From the NCBI RefSeq assembly GCF_000213805.1, contig NC_015556.1:1984001-2048000 (forward strand): a stretch of 64,000 nucleotides of DNA, given 5' to 3'. This DNA is from Pseudomonas fulva 12-X (GTDB taxonomy: Bacteria > Pseudomonadota > Gammaproteobacteria > Pseudomonadales > Pseudomonadaceae). Positions 5,127 through 36,668 of the stretch are shown here, in pieces; the first letter of the stretch is position 1; every line of letters begins with the position of its first letter. The notes under the pieces were generated by a model, which saw only the letters and a program-made list of their open reading frames with translations, was not told the DNA's origin and ran no database searches. Made by a program: the position numbers and the translations under genes.

Positions 5127-5343
5127 CTGAGAGCCTGTTCACGATCCTTATGCGCATGAAGCGGTAGCTATAAGGGGCGGACATCGGCGCAGTATCTGTG
5201 GGAACGGGCGGGGACGCCCAGTTCATGCCCGCGATTTTTCGCGCGCATGGCGCGCTCCCACAGTGGATCGGCGAAAGGCCGCTCTCGCTACTCAGCTGCC
5301 AAAATCGACGAGCCTGGGCTGAAAGATCATGAACAGGTTCTGA
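5127..5343. mobile_element. MITE-like element 1, 209 bp with terminal inverted repeats and CTGA duplication, REP core
   Basis: The interior runs 5131-5339. The left end GAGCCTGTTCACGATC and the reverse complement of the right end (AACCTGTTCATGATC) pair with few mismatches, and CTGA flanks both sides (5127-5130, 5340-5343). Inside is a palindromic REP-like unit (GTGGGAACGG..., CATGCCCGCGATTTTTCGCG..., CGCTCCCAC). There is no reading frame with a recognisable product. It lies between the divergent ends of the DUF347 and DUF6685-like genes. Three relatives occur in this window. Confidence 0.75.
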
Positions 5344-5372
5344 GCGGCATCGCCAAGCGCTTCGCGGCGTGG

Positions 5373-6248
5373 TTACGAAAACCTGTCGCTCAGTTCGCGT
5401 ACGTAACCCAGCATGTCCGGTGCGCCGGCCTGCAGCAGGCCTTCGCCCAGGGCGCAGGCCTGTGGCGAGTGCTTGGGCAGCAAAAGAAACTCGGGCGCGC
5501 CCGGCGTGCGCAATAGGCTCAGGCGTGCATAGGGCACCTCGTGCTCCATCAGCAACTGCATGAAACTGGCGTCGCTCCAAGCCGCGCAGGGCATCGCCAG
5601 AGCGTGATAGCGCTGCTGCAGATCGTGCAGGCCGTCGGGGCTGATGCGGTAGTAGGTGATGTGCGCCGGCAGGGTGATTTCCAGGCCGCGCAAGCGCGCA
5701 TAGGCCACGGCGCTGGCAAAGGCTTCAGGGTGCGACTCGCCGGCCCAGAACAACCGCTCGCCGCGCCACTGGGCGTGGAACAGTTCGAGGCTCTGGTGCG
5801 GGTACTCGGGCAGCGCCTTGCTCAGGTGCTTGAGAAAATCGCGGTAGCTGATGATGCGGATCTGCCGGCAGGCTTCGCTGGCCGCGTAGTCCTCGAGGCT
5901 GCCGTAACTGCCGTCGCAGTGCACCAGGCTGTCGACCAGGCGCAGGTCGAATTGCTCCAGATGGCGGTGTTCGACCTCGATCAACTGGACCAACGCAGCG
6001 TGGGCTTCGGCCTTGTCTTCCTGTACCGGACCGGACAGTGCACTGCGCGGGAGATCCTTGAGGCGCTGCAGGGGCGGACCGCCCAGCCAGCAGATGTTAT
6101 CGCCAAAGGTGGGAATTTCGGAGAAGGGCAGTTGCAGCTGACTGGCGCGCTCGAAGATGGGCTTGCAGCCACGGCCAAGCAGACCGACGCGCTGGGCCAG
6201 GGCGGCCAGGCGTGAGGCTAGAGGGCTGGGCTGTTCAGGCAGGCTCAT
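5373..6248 (-). CDS. Conserved pseudomonad protein, probably DUF6685 family
   Basis: This is a soluble-looking protein of 291 residues without signal peptide or membrane segment. I recognise it as a conserved Pseudomonas hypothetical protein found near pyrD, and DUF6685 is my best family guess. The length of the frame, its normal codon use and its position support a real gene. Around residues 50-60 it has an ICWLGGPPLQ segment, and the region around residues 175-225 is rich in aromatic residues and histidine. No catalytic motif is obvious, so no function is assigned. The stop codon lies 30 bp from the edge of the repeat element at 5127-5343. Confidence 0.75.
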   Translation of the reverse strand: MSLPEQPSPLASRLAALAQRVGLLGRGCKPIFERASQLQLPFSEIPTFGDNICWLGGPPLQRLKDLPRSALSGPVQEDKAEAHAALVQLIEVEHRHLEQFDLRLVDSLVHCDGSYGSLEDYAASEACRQIRIISYRDFLKHLSKALPEYPHQSLELFHAQWRGERLFWAGESHPEAFASAVAYARLRGLEITLPAHITYYRISPDGLHDLQQRYHALAMPCAAWSDASFMQLLMEHEVPYARLSLLRTPGAPEFLLLPKHSPQACALGEGLLQAGAPDMLGYVRELSDRFS

Positions 6249-6414
6249 GGCAGCTCGCGTACGTCAGTGTGCCAGGCGCAGTGTGGCAGAGCCTGCCAGG
6301 AGTTGCACGACCCTCGCAGCACAATGTCCAGGTCATGGCCGAAATGCCCGGACCTGATCGATGCGACAGGTTCGAATATGGCACAATCCGTTCATTCATC
6401 TGCAAGGAGCCTCC

Positions 6415-35182: not shown

Positions 35183-35745
35183 TCCTGCATCTGCTGCGCC
35201 ACGGCGAGACCGAGCAGGGCGGTGGCCTGCGTGGCAGCCTCGACGATGCCCTGACCGAGGCAGGCTGGGCGCAGCTGCGCGCGGCCGTGGAGGCCTATGA
35301 ACACTGGGATGCGCTGGTCAGCTCGCCGCTGCAGCGCTGTGCGCGGTTTGCCGAGGAGCTGGCGGCTGCCCGCGACCTGCCGCTGCAATTCGAACCGGGT
35401 CTGCAGGAACTGCATTTCGGCGAGTGGGAAGGGCGCACGGCCGCGCAACTGATGGAAACCGATGCGGATGATCTTGGCCGCTTCTGGGCCGATCCCTACG
35501 GGTTCACGCCACCGGGCGGCGAGCCACTGCCGGCTTTCGAAACGCGGGTATTGGATGCGCTGCAACGATTGCACGCCGAGTACCCCGAGCAGCAATTGCT
35601 GGTGGTCACCCATGGCGGCGTGATACGCCTGTTGCTGGCCAGGGCGCGGGGTTTACCGCGCGAGCAACTGCTGCAGGTCAGCGTGGCCCACGGCCAGCGC
35701 GTGCACCTGCAGTTCGATGGGCACGGGTTACAGGAACTGTCATGA
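35179..35745 (+). CDS. Alpha-ribazole-5'-phosphate phosphatase (histidine phosphatase family)
   Basis: This 188-residue histidine phosphatase (named cobC in enterobacteria, a name used here for the decarboxylase) dephosphorylates the nucleotide loop or its precursor. It has the RHGE motif (R7-E10), the second basic site in SSPLQRCARFAEEL, the acid motif ELHFGEWEG and the histidine in VVTHGGVIRLLL. The start is a GTG inside the cobT stop codon. It overlaps cobS by four bases. Confidence 0.9.
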   Translation: MILHLLRHGETEQGGGLRGSLDDALTEAGWAQLRAAVEAYEHWDALVSSPLQRCARFAEELAAARDLPLQFEPGLQELHFGEWEGRTAAQLMETDADDLGRFWADPYGFTPPGGEPLPAFETRVLDALQRLHAEYPEQQLLVVTHGGVIRLLLARARGLPREQLLQVSVAHGQRVHLQFDGHGLQELS

Positions 35746-36470
35746 CGCCATTGTGGATCGCTCTGCAATTTCTCACCCGTTTGCCGGTGCGCCTGGCGGG
35801 CATGCCCACGCCGCAGCAGATGGGCCGTTCGCTGCTGTTCTATCCAGTGGTAGGCGTGGTGATCGGTGGGTTCTTGCTCGTTGCCATTCATCTTCTCGAC
35901 GGTGCCCCGGTGCCTTTGCAGGCAGCTTTGTTGCTGACCCTCTGGGTAGGGCTGACCGGAGCCTTGCACCTCGATGGCCTGGCCGATAGCGCCGACGCCT
36001 GGATGGGCGGCTTCGGTGACCGCGAGCGCACCCTGGCGATCATGAAGGATCCGCGCAGCGGCCCGATTGCCGTGGTGGTGCTGGCATTGCTGCTGCTGCT
36101 CAAGTTCACCGCCTTGCTGGCACTGCTCGAACAGGGTGATCACCTCGCGTTGCTGCTGGCGCCGGTGCTGGGGCGAGGGGCGCTGCTGGCGCTGTTTCTC
36201 TACACACCTTACGTGCGACCCGGCGGGCTGGGCGATGCGCTGAAAACCCATTTGCCGCACTCCAGCGCTTTGGTCGTGGTGGCCGTTACCACGTTGCTCG
36301 GCCTGCTGCTCGGCGGTTTCTGGGTGATGGTGGCGGTAACGGGCGTCTTCCTGTGGCTGCGCCGGATGATGCAACAACGCCTGGGCGGCACGACCGGCGA
36401 TACGGCGGGTGCGTTGCTGGAAGTGATCGAGTGCGCGGTGCTGCTCGCTGCGGCGCTGCAGGTCAGTTAA
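35742..36470 (+). CDS. cobS: Adenosylcobinamide-GDP ribazoletransferase (cobalamin synthase)
   Basis: CobS joins adenosylcobinamide-GDP and alpha-ribazole to complete cobalamin at the inner membrane. The 242-residue protein is very hydrophobic and has the signature HLDGLADSADAWMGG (about 77-91) with metal-binding aspartates, plus MKDPRSGPIAVVVL. It is the last gene of the operon. Its stop codon TAA (36468-36470) is part of the TTAA target duplication of mobile element 4, which therefore marks the exact 3' end of the cluster. Confidence 0.95.
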   Translation: MTPLWIALQFLTRLPVRLAGMPTPQQMGRSLLFYPVVGVVIGGFLLVAIHLLDGAPVPLQAALLLTLWVGLTGALHLDGLADSADAWMGGFGDRERTLAIMKDPRSGPIAVVVLALLLLLKFTALLALLEQGDHLALLLAPVLGRGALLALFLYTPYVRPGGLGDALKTHLPHSSALVVVAVTTLLGLLLGGFWVMVAVTGVFLWLRRMMQQRLGGTTGDTAGALLEVIECAVLLAAALQVS

Positions 36471-36668
36471 AGCCTGTGCATGATCTTCCGGCCCAGGTCC
36501 GCCGATTTTGGTAGCTAAGTGGCGGGAGCGGCCGTCCACCTATCCTGTGGGAACGGACCATGCCCGTGATTTTTCGCGGGCATGGCCCGCTCCCACAATG
36601 GATCAGTGATGTTCGCTTCTGCCTCGAAGTTACCGCTTCAGCGCATAAAGATCGTGAACAGGATTTAA
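36467..36668. mobile_element. MITE-like element 4, 194 bp, TTAA duplication, REP core, inverted orientation
   Basis: The interior runs 36471-36664. The left end AGCCTGTGCATGATC and the reverse complement of the right end (ATCCTGTTCACGATC) pair, and TTAA flanks both sides (36467-36470, 36665-36668). The right half read in reverse (ATCCTGTTCACGATCTTTAT..., then GCGGTAACTTC) matches the left half of element 1, so this copy is inverted relative to it. The REP-like palindrome CATGCCCGTGATTTTTCGCG... is present. Confidence 0.75.

Follow-up and report, generated by a model that had tools for sequence, protein, structure and literature searches.

Miniature inverted-repeat transposable elements (MITEs) are usually defined by their ends, and their interiors are thought to drift. 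In the IS5 family of insertion sequences (ISs), a 3-bp target duplication of the TNA type is the rule of the IS1031 group. Four short elements located in a 64-kb stretch of the Pseudomonas fulva 12-X genome (hereafter the window, positions 1984001-2048000 of the single 4.92-Mb contig that was searched) combine ends and duplications of this kind with interiors of two classes, one comprising a folded module of about 110 nucleotides (class A) and the other built around a pair of repetitive extragenic palindromic (REP) sequences (class B). They are real non-autonomous transposable elements, and the account to which we assign a probability of roughly 85%, judging from sequence comparisons, is that DDE transposases of the IS5 family would move these MITEs in trans, with the class A core kept by selection for a function independent of any one transposase.

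All four units proposed in the initial annotation are present, and sequence inspection together with an end-pairing scan confirmed that their inverted ends pair; they share the 16-bp ends GARCCTGTTCAYGATC. Element 1 (5131-5340, 210 bp, class B), both of whose ends match the degenerate end without a mismatch, is bordered by TGA (5128-5130 and 5341-5343) and carries a central REP pair of the T1 family, a palindrome resembling a REP doublet forming a hairpin (REPIN), at approximately 5196-5262, centred at 0.48 of the element length. Element 2 (6637-6820, minus strand, 184 bp), recognised by its ends and its TAA duplication (6634-6636 and 6821-6823), is the class A MITE, its structured core being the space between the ends (6652-6805, minus strand). 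Element 3 (22575-22777, 203 bp, class B, with the REP core reversed against the arms relative to element 1) is bordered by TCA (22572-22574 and 22778-22780), and element 4 (36471-36665, 195 bp, class B, with the arm order opposite to that of element 1) by TAA (36468-36470 and 36666-36668), the latter duplication being read with a one-base shift because the left end lacks its first G; no strand is assigned to elements 1, 3, and 4. Three of the four duplications coincide with stop codons: the left copy of element 2 ends a frame with its ATG at 6415, the right copy of element 3 is the complement of the TGA stop of the open reading frame (ORF) 22778-23356 (minus strand), and the left copy of element 4 ends ORF 35742-36470 (plus strand). 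The units are thus short, with terminal inverted repeats and target duplications, and none contains a transposase, in agreement with the transposition and non-autonomy claimed for them. Their treatment as one family holds for the ends; what had been missed is that this single kind of end encloses interiors of two classes, class B in elements 1, 3, and 4 and class A in element 2.

The class A core has covarying helices and conserved G-A internal loops. Element 2 is linked by alignments across genera to a set of related elements, of which two alignments were made. The first, A1, comprises 13 interiors from six genomes, drawn from inverted-repeat elements matched by the Rfam model of sX9, a small RNA (sRNA) considered below, and has 111 columns, 44 of them invariant. 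In its consensus fold 98.2% of cells are paired (89.5 in shuffles), 35 cells are changed on both sides (10.9 in shuffles), and the covariation is 0.325 as compared with 0.148 (0/500), the shuffles being blind to the relatedness of the rows. The second, A6, comprises 32 of the 54 copies in the P. fulva genome, 28 of them distinct and none from the window. Its fold is 98.9% paired (89.9 in shuffles, 0/500), while slid structures are 31-42% paired; changes on both sides are found in 18 of 32 pairs (7.1 in shuffles), there are 34 further pair types (23.8 in shuffles), and the covariation is 0.273 versus 0.108 (0/500 each). The bases of the internal loops, GA/GA and GGA/GA, and a bulged A are largely conserved.

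Two detection models were built, R1 from the A1 interiors and R2 from A6, that is, from this genome alone. R2 has exactly one match in the window, the core of element 2 (41.8 bits, E 5.3e-9), which did not contribute to the model; it also matches all 29 foreign loci earlier found by R1 and none of seven IS loci. At E <= 0.001, R1 has matches in 74 genomes out of 274 from Gammaproteobacteria, representing 66 of 222 genera; the E-values are rough, 37 of the 274 have a best E <= 1e-6, and six genomes had supplied the model sequences. In the P. fulva genome R1 has 54 matches. A Guanidine-II riboswitch lies near one of the class A copies of this genome (L341, 2860-2906).

Conservation is higher in the interior than at the ends, which is the reverse of the usual MITE pattern. 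In the P. fulva genome similar cores stand beside CACGAT-type and CAAAG-type ends, and others besides, and across 30 loci found by R1 the flanking inverted repeats are, by eye, of about a dozen kinds; repeats scoring at least 8 flank 26 of these 30 loci as against 15 of 300 random positions. Identity in this genome amounts to 86% in the core and 54-57% in the ends, figures biased towards the core by the picking of the A6 copies on their core, which detracts from their weight; therefore, the half of the A1 core that lies outside the sX9 search model was compared with the adjacent end. It is 71% identical as against 51% for the end (best of seven shifts; shuffled ends 43%), and, among pairs that differ in genome or end type, exceeds the end in 67 of 70, or in 58 of 61 once the row lacking that end is set aside. 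The maintenance of a 110-base folded module in many bacteria despite differing ends suggests selection on the inside of the element, not only on its ends, and an interior held by compensatory changes while the ends change may have a function of its own.

These comparisons bear on the explanation that the core is itself unselected and appears conserved only through young copies, gene conversion, or selection of the sample, which we consider unlikely but worth weighing with care. It draws support from the detection of the copies in this genome by a core-based model and from the general knowledge that long palindromes can gain paired changes by hairpin-templated mutation. It does not readily account for the higher conservation, when different genomes or end types are compared, of a core half unused for detection than of the end beside it, for the conservation of unpaired internal-loop bases, or for the occurrence of similar cores beside at least two end types in a single genome and about a dozen kinds across 30 loci; gene conversion would moreover be expected to homogenise the adjacent ends as well.

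The main alternative for the function of the core is that of a bidirectional transcription terminator or insulator, making insertion between convergent genes harmless. Of the class A-like elements that could be oriented, 48 in number, 21 are flanked on both sides by the 3' ends of convergent genes, 20 are at one gene end, and seven at none, and the core shows no strand bias to neighbouring genes (29 sense, 33 antisense), as would befit a two-way device. Within 5100-6900 of the window, however, terminator-like sites are in no significant excess (two found, 1.4 expected), and terminators are generally known not to need conserved G-A internal loops, so this role appears improbable, if by no means far-fetched.

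sX9 (RF02228), described from Xanthomonas, is listed among the most prevalent annotated bacterial sRNAs in passages of PMC9029176. Its model matched parts of the interiors of related elements in one of eight loci in one search and in seven of eight in another, with ten places in the seven Pseudogulbenkiania/Luteimonas loci at E 2e-5 to 0.02, of which one was above the gathering score of 44 (best relative 47.1 bits in this locus test and 56.9 bits in the genome search). The search of the 274 Gammaproteobacteria genomes gave matches in nine, four above the cut-off. There were 25 matches in all. Inverted-repeat elements of 139-157 bp, most of them bearing other ends, account for 18; three others are too near contig ends to be judged and four have no convincing repeat pair. 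The sX9 family may thus be recast as, at least in part, a transposon component. The opposite view, in which the core is a trans-acting sRNA gene that happens to ride on MITEs, is favoured by the matches themselves and by the sRNAs that, according to passages of PMC5896051, derive from MITEs in Coxiella. We regard it as quite unlikely, given the high copy number and unbiased orientation of the core, the failure to find a promoter-like site in 5100-6900 of the window, and the lack of an sX9 match in the window at the gathering score, or at E <= 10 within 4900-7100.

Class B differs in its centre. REP sequences are found in 22 of 26 elements of the P. fulva genome and are absent from four; 20 of the 22 have an inverted REP pair, whose centre lies at 0.44-0.56 of the element length in all 20. 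The set of 26 was chosen by eye out of 123 candidate pairings in the examined genome pieces. Three REP families occupy this position, T2 in elements 1346624 and 2646420, T3 in 857344, a pairing of ends without a duplication, and T1 in the rest. A central REP pair is also present in eight elements of other genomes (L090, L093, L100, L106, L111, L122, L135, and L138, out of 79 examined). The arms are partly complementary, and elements 1, 3, and 4 show that either orientation of the arms relative to the REP centre occurs. The class B centre consists of two inverted REPs that form a hairpin and recur elsewhere in the genome, as expected of a REPIN, and class B units could accordingly be thought of as REPIN clusters moved by a REP-associated tyrosine transposase (RAYT) and not as IS5-type MITEs. 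In favour of this view are the central pairs of three REP families and the three Y1_Tnp genes of the genome, one of which (L076) adjoins a T3 REP pair; within 1.5-kb flanks the other two have no such REPs, and T1 and T2 are near none of the three. Since the TNA duplications and the IS5-type ends are located outside the REP arms, and REP pairs without the MITE arms and ends are also present in the genome, an origin through RAYT activity is very unlikely. The central nesting of three REP families within a single MITE type offers a natural test of REPIN insertion sites. Outside the four elements, positions 58155-58197 of the window are complementary to a portion of the central REP sequence in element 1, and a further inverted REP-like palindrome, distinct from T1-T3, is found at 10918-10956 and 53232-53270.

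The genome-wide search with the 16-bp ends that had been recommended gave 203 matches to GAGCCTGTTCACGATC at up to three mismatches and 46 to the reversed pattern, so that the ends are far above chance; element 1, used as a DNA query, had 59 genome matches, many of them covering the REP centre only. In other species, a scan for both ends gave 87 stretches with 86 elements, the element in one locus (L132) being too close to the locus end; this recount supersedes an earlier one on 80 of the stretches (79 elements, 50 with perfect duplications). Among the 80 listed other-species loci with both ends, 39 come from Pseudomonas, Azomonas, or Stutzerimonas. A perfect 3-bp duplication borders 53 of the 86 elements, in agreement with the TNA duplication expected in the IS1031 group of the IS5 family, and 24 more have one mismatch. 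Shuffled pairing of the flanks gives 16.6 perfect cases on average and never more than 28 in 2000 rounds; therefore, the duplication is real and 3 bp long. Its types are TTA (21), TAA (15), TCA (14), and TGA (3). The base preceding it (-4) is C in 59 and the base following it (+4) is G in 66 of the 86 elements, from which the palindromic target CTNAG is derived. The last base of the element is C in 86 of 86, yet the fourth base matches in only 32 of the 53 perfect duplications: the apparent fourth base is, on the right, the terminal C of the element itself combined with the preference of the target for C. The elements do not show the 4-bp duplication of the YTNA/YTAR group of IS5. In 28 of the 53 elements the perfect duplication forms the stop codon that ends a frame of 100 codons or more, as compared with 124 of 1000 random TNA sites drawn from the same loci, coding sites included.

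The 4-bp YTNA duplication first proposed, which all four window elements and the frequent C at -4 in their relatives allow, and which resembles the 4-nt CTAG or YTAA duplication reported in passages of PMC3189936 for MITEPsy1 of P. syringae, is rejected as extremely improbable on the mismatch between the invariant terminal C and the base at -4, and on two copies in the P. fulva genome that break it, 795134, which has GTAA on its left and ends in C, and 643524, which has CTCA on its left and ends in A. Copies without duplicated flanks, which the initial annotation had named as evidence against itself, do occur: perfect TNA stands at the strict boundaries in 11 of the 26 elements of this genome, and in 15 it is mismatched, shifted, or absent. 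We read these copies as decayed. A TTA/TTG mismatch between the flanks recurs in five of the 26 (2465973, 2646420, 3789704, 4887879, and 966771).

A transposase of the IS5 family acting in trans had been guessed, and the guess proved a good one, as IS5-type ISs with closely similar ends and TNA duplications were found. Four DDE_Tnp_1 matches are present in the P. fulva genome, one of them inside an IS with related ends (3414111-3414948; four and one mismatches to the degenerate end, TAA flanks). The pieces of this IS belong to the IS5 family, as the NCBIfam model NF033580 (transpos_IS5_3) scores 154.2 bits in the DDE part, with a cutoff of 110, and 91.7 bits in the other part; PF13340 is found in this other part and PF01609 is also matched. 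Comparison with relatives shows that its reading frame is broken upstream of the point where two of them (L353 and L354) switch frame, so it is probably inactive. DNA relatives of this IS are rare, any match being found in eight of 149 genomes of the genus sample, P. fulva 12-X included. Autonomous relatives with closely similar ends occur elsewhere. One (L165, 1487-2350, 864 bp) has an open frame of 284 codons, a TTA duplication, and perfect ends of 20 bp, GAGCCTGCTCATAATCTTTT, with two mismatches to the degenerate end; another, from Aromatoleum (L353), has CAAAG-type ends GAACCTGTTCAAAGTCT and a TAA duplication. A third relative (L355), labelled ISStma16, has the left end GAGCCTGTTTACGATCT. 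The first of these loci contains two adjacent IS copies sharing one TTA (1487-3209), of which only the first has the long open frame, that of the second being split. In L353 and L354 the point of the frame change is an A-rich run that lies after the one part and before the other of DUF4096 and DDE, and the change resembles a programmed frameshift.

In the proposed mechanism, a transposase of the transpos_IS5_3 type, with DUF4096 and DDE_Tnp_1 domains, would recognise ends like GARCCTGTTCAYGATC and insert the element into CTNAG, where a stagger of 3 nt would produce the TNA duplications. With this preference, insertion would often take place at a stop codon, which the duplication would restore, and many insertions might thereby be tolerable. 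The folded core, as single-stranded DNA, cruciform, or RNA, would most likely be recognised by a host-encoded factor, which could help the element spread or make insertion at gene ends harmless; since the core is constant while the ends, and presumably the transposases too, differ, a host factor is a likelier partner than one transposase. A bolder version, which we advance tentatively and hold to be somewhat short of an even chance, is that the ~110-nt module may be what is truly conserved in, and defines, a very widespread superfamily of bacterial MITEs; it would be passed between unrelated ends and transposases across Gamma- and Betaproteobacteria because a host factor recognises its folded form, and sX9 would be a fragment of it.

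Several observations weigh against mobilisation by IS5-type transposases combined with selection on the core. As to mobilisation, whose action in trans we infer, the P. fulva genome yielded no intact cognate transposase: its sole matching IS is frame-broken, and an end-pairing scan did not reveal such ends around the other PF01609 matches (L062-L064), which were examined for ends and not for intactness. A perfect duplication is missing in 33 of the 86 other-species elements. Among all 55 examined R1 matches, inverted repeats scoring at least 8 were found in 32 and TNA was placed by script in only four, in part because the CTNAG target, itself a palindrome, adds to the length of the inverted repeat; flanks of R1 loci read by eye suggest in some cases TA, CTAG, or TTAA. 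As to the core, on whose fold selection would have acted, the 80 loci recovered through their ends include only 18 with an R1 match, Betaproteobacteria (Pseudogulbenkiania) among them, and R1 misses element 2 in the window, which is attributed to inserts in the core of that element. Two of five covariation measures in A1 are unremarkable (eight double-change pairs, 19/500; 18 pair types, 459/500), and the A1 shuffles disregard row relatedness. Finally, the strand from which sX9 is read is not that of the G-A loops but its complement, and the absent strand bias speaks against a cis-acting RNA made from one strand.

The sites of three elements were compared with the best-matching relative among 119 genomes (G001). 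The gap between the flanks is shorter there by 198 bp at the site of element 4 (195+3 expected) and by 204 bp at that of element 3 (203+3 expected), with the adjoining bases aligning poorly at both, while the site of element 2 (L250) is occupied by another, longer element whose ends are of a similar kind, with a left arm of class B, a right end like that of class A, and additional internal DNA. The gap lengths at elements 3 and 4 do not contradict the empty sites predicted initially, but the flanks are too diverged to show the base-exact loss of one duplication copy.

Other features of the window comprise a tandem repeat of 75-bp period with six overlapping matches at 47270-47829, overlapped by ORFs, a Cobalamin riboswitch at 27266-27494 (Rfam RF00174, 106 bits), and the rmf RNA at 8251-8382 on the minus strand (RF01755, 108 bits).

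Among titles and abstracts, subscription papers being mostly outside the search, no description was found of the core or of REP pairs nested in such MITEs; the closest described systems each share some of their features. ISs of the IS5 family, of IS1031/IS427-like groups, have related ends, the TNA duplication, a transposase with DUF4096 and DDE_Tnp_1, and, in the relatives L353 and L354, a frame change inside its gene, whereas a transposase is absent from the window elements, whose interiors, as judged by the core model, are unmatched to ISs. MITEPsy1 of P. syringae (PMC3189936) is likewise a small IS5-like non-autonomous element of Pseudomonas with a short T-rich duplication. It differs, however, in its length of 100 nt, its ends GGAAGGTCTGAAAAAGCC, and a duplication of four nucleotides, and such a core does not figure in the passages of that paper. 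REPINs (PMC3116915), as presented in passages of that source, share with class B the inverted REP pair forming a hairpin, which in class B is nested within the centre of an IS5-type MITE. QMITE1/2 of Coxiella (passages of PMC5896051) are also MITEs giving rise to sRNAs, but they have other direct repeats, and QMITE1 has, according to that paper, no orthologues in other genomes. The 76-nt model of sX9 is the reverse complement of about half of the class A core together with a part of one end, and is annotated as an sRNA, whereas most of its matches lie in inverted-repeat elements and the window falls below its threshold.

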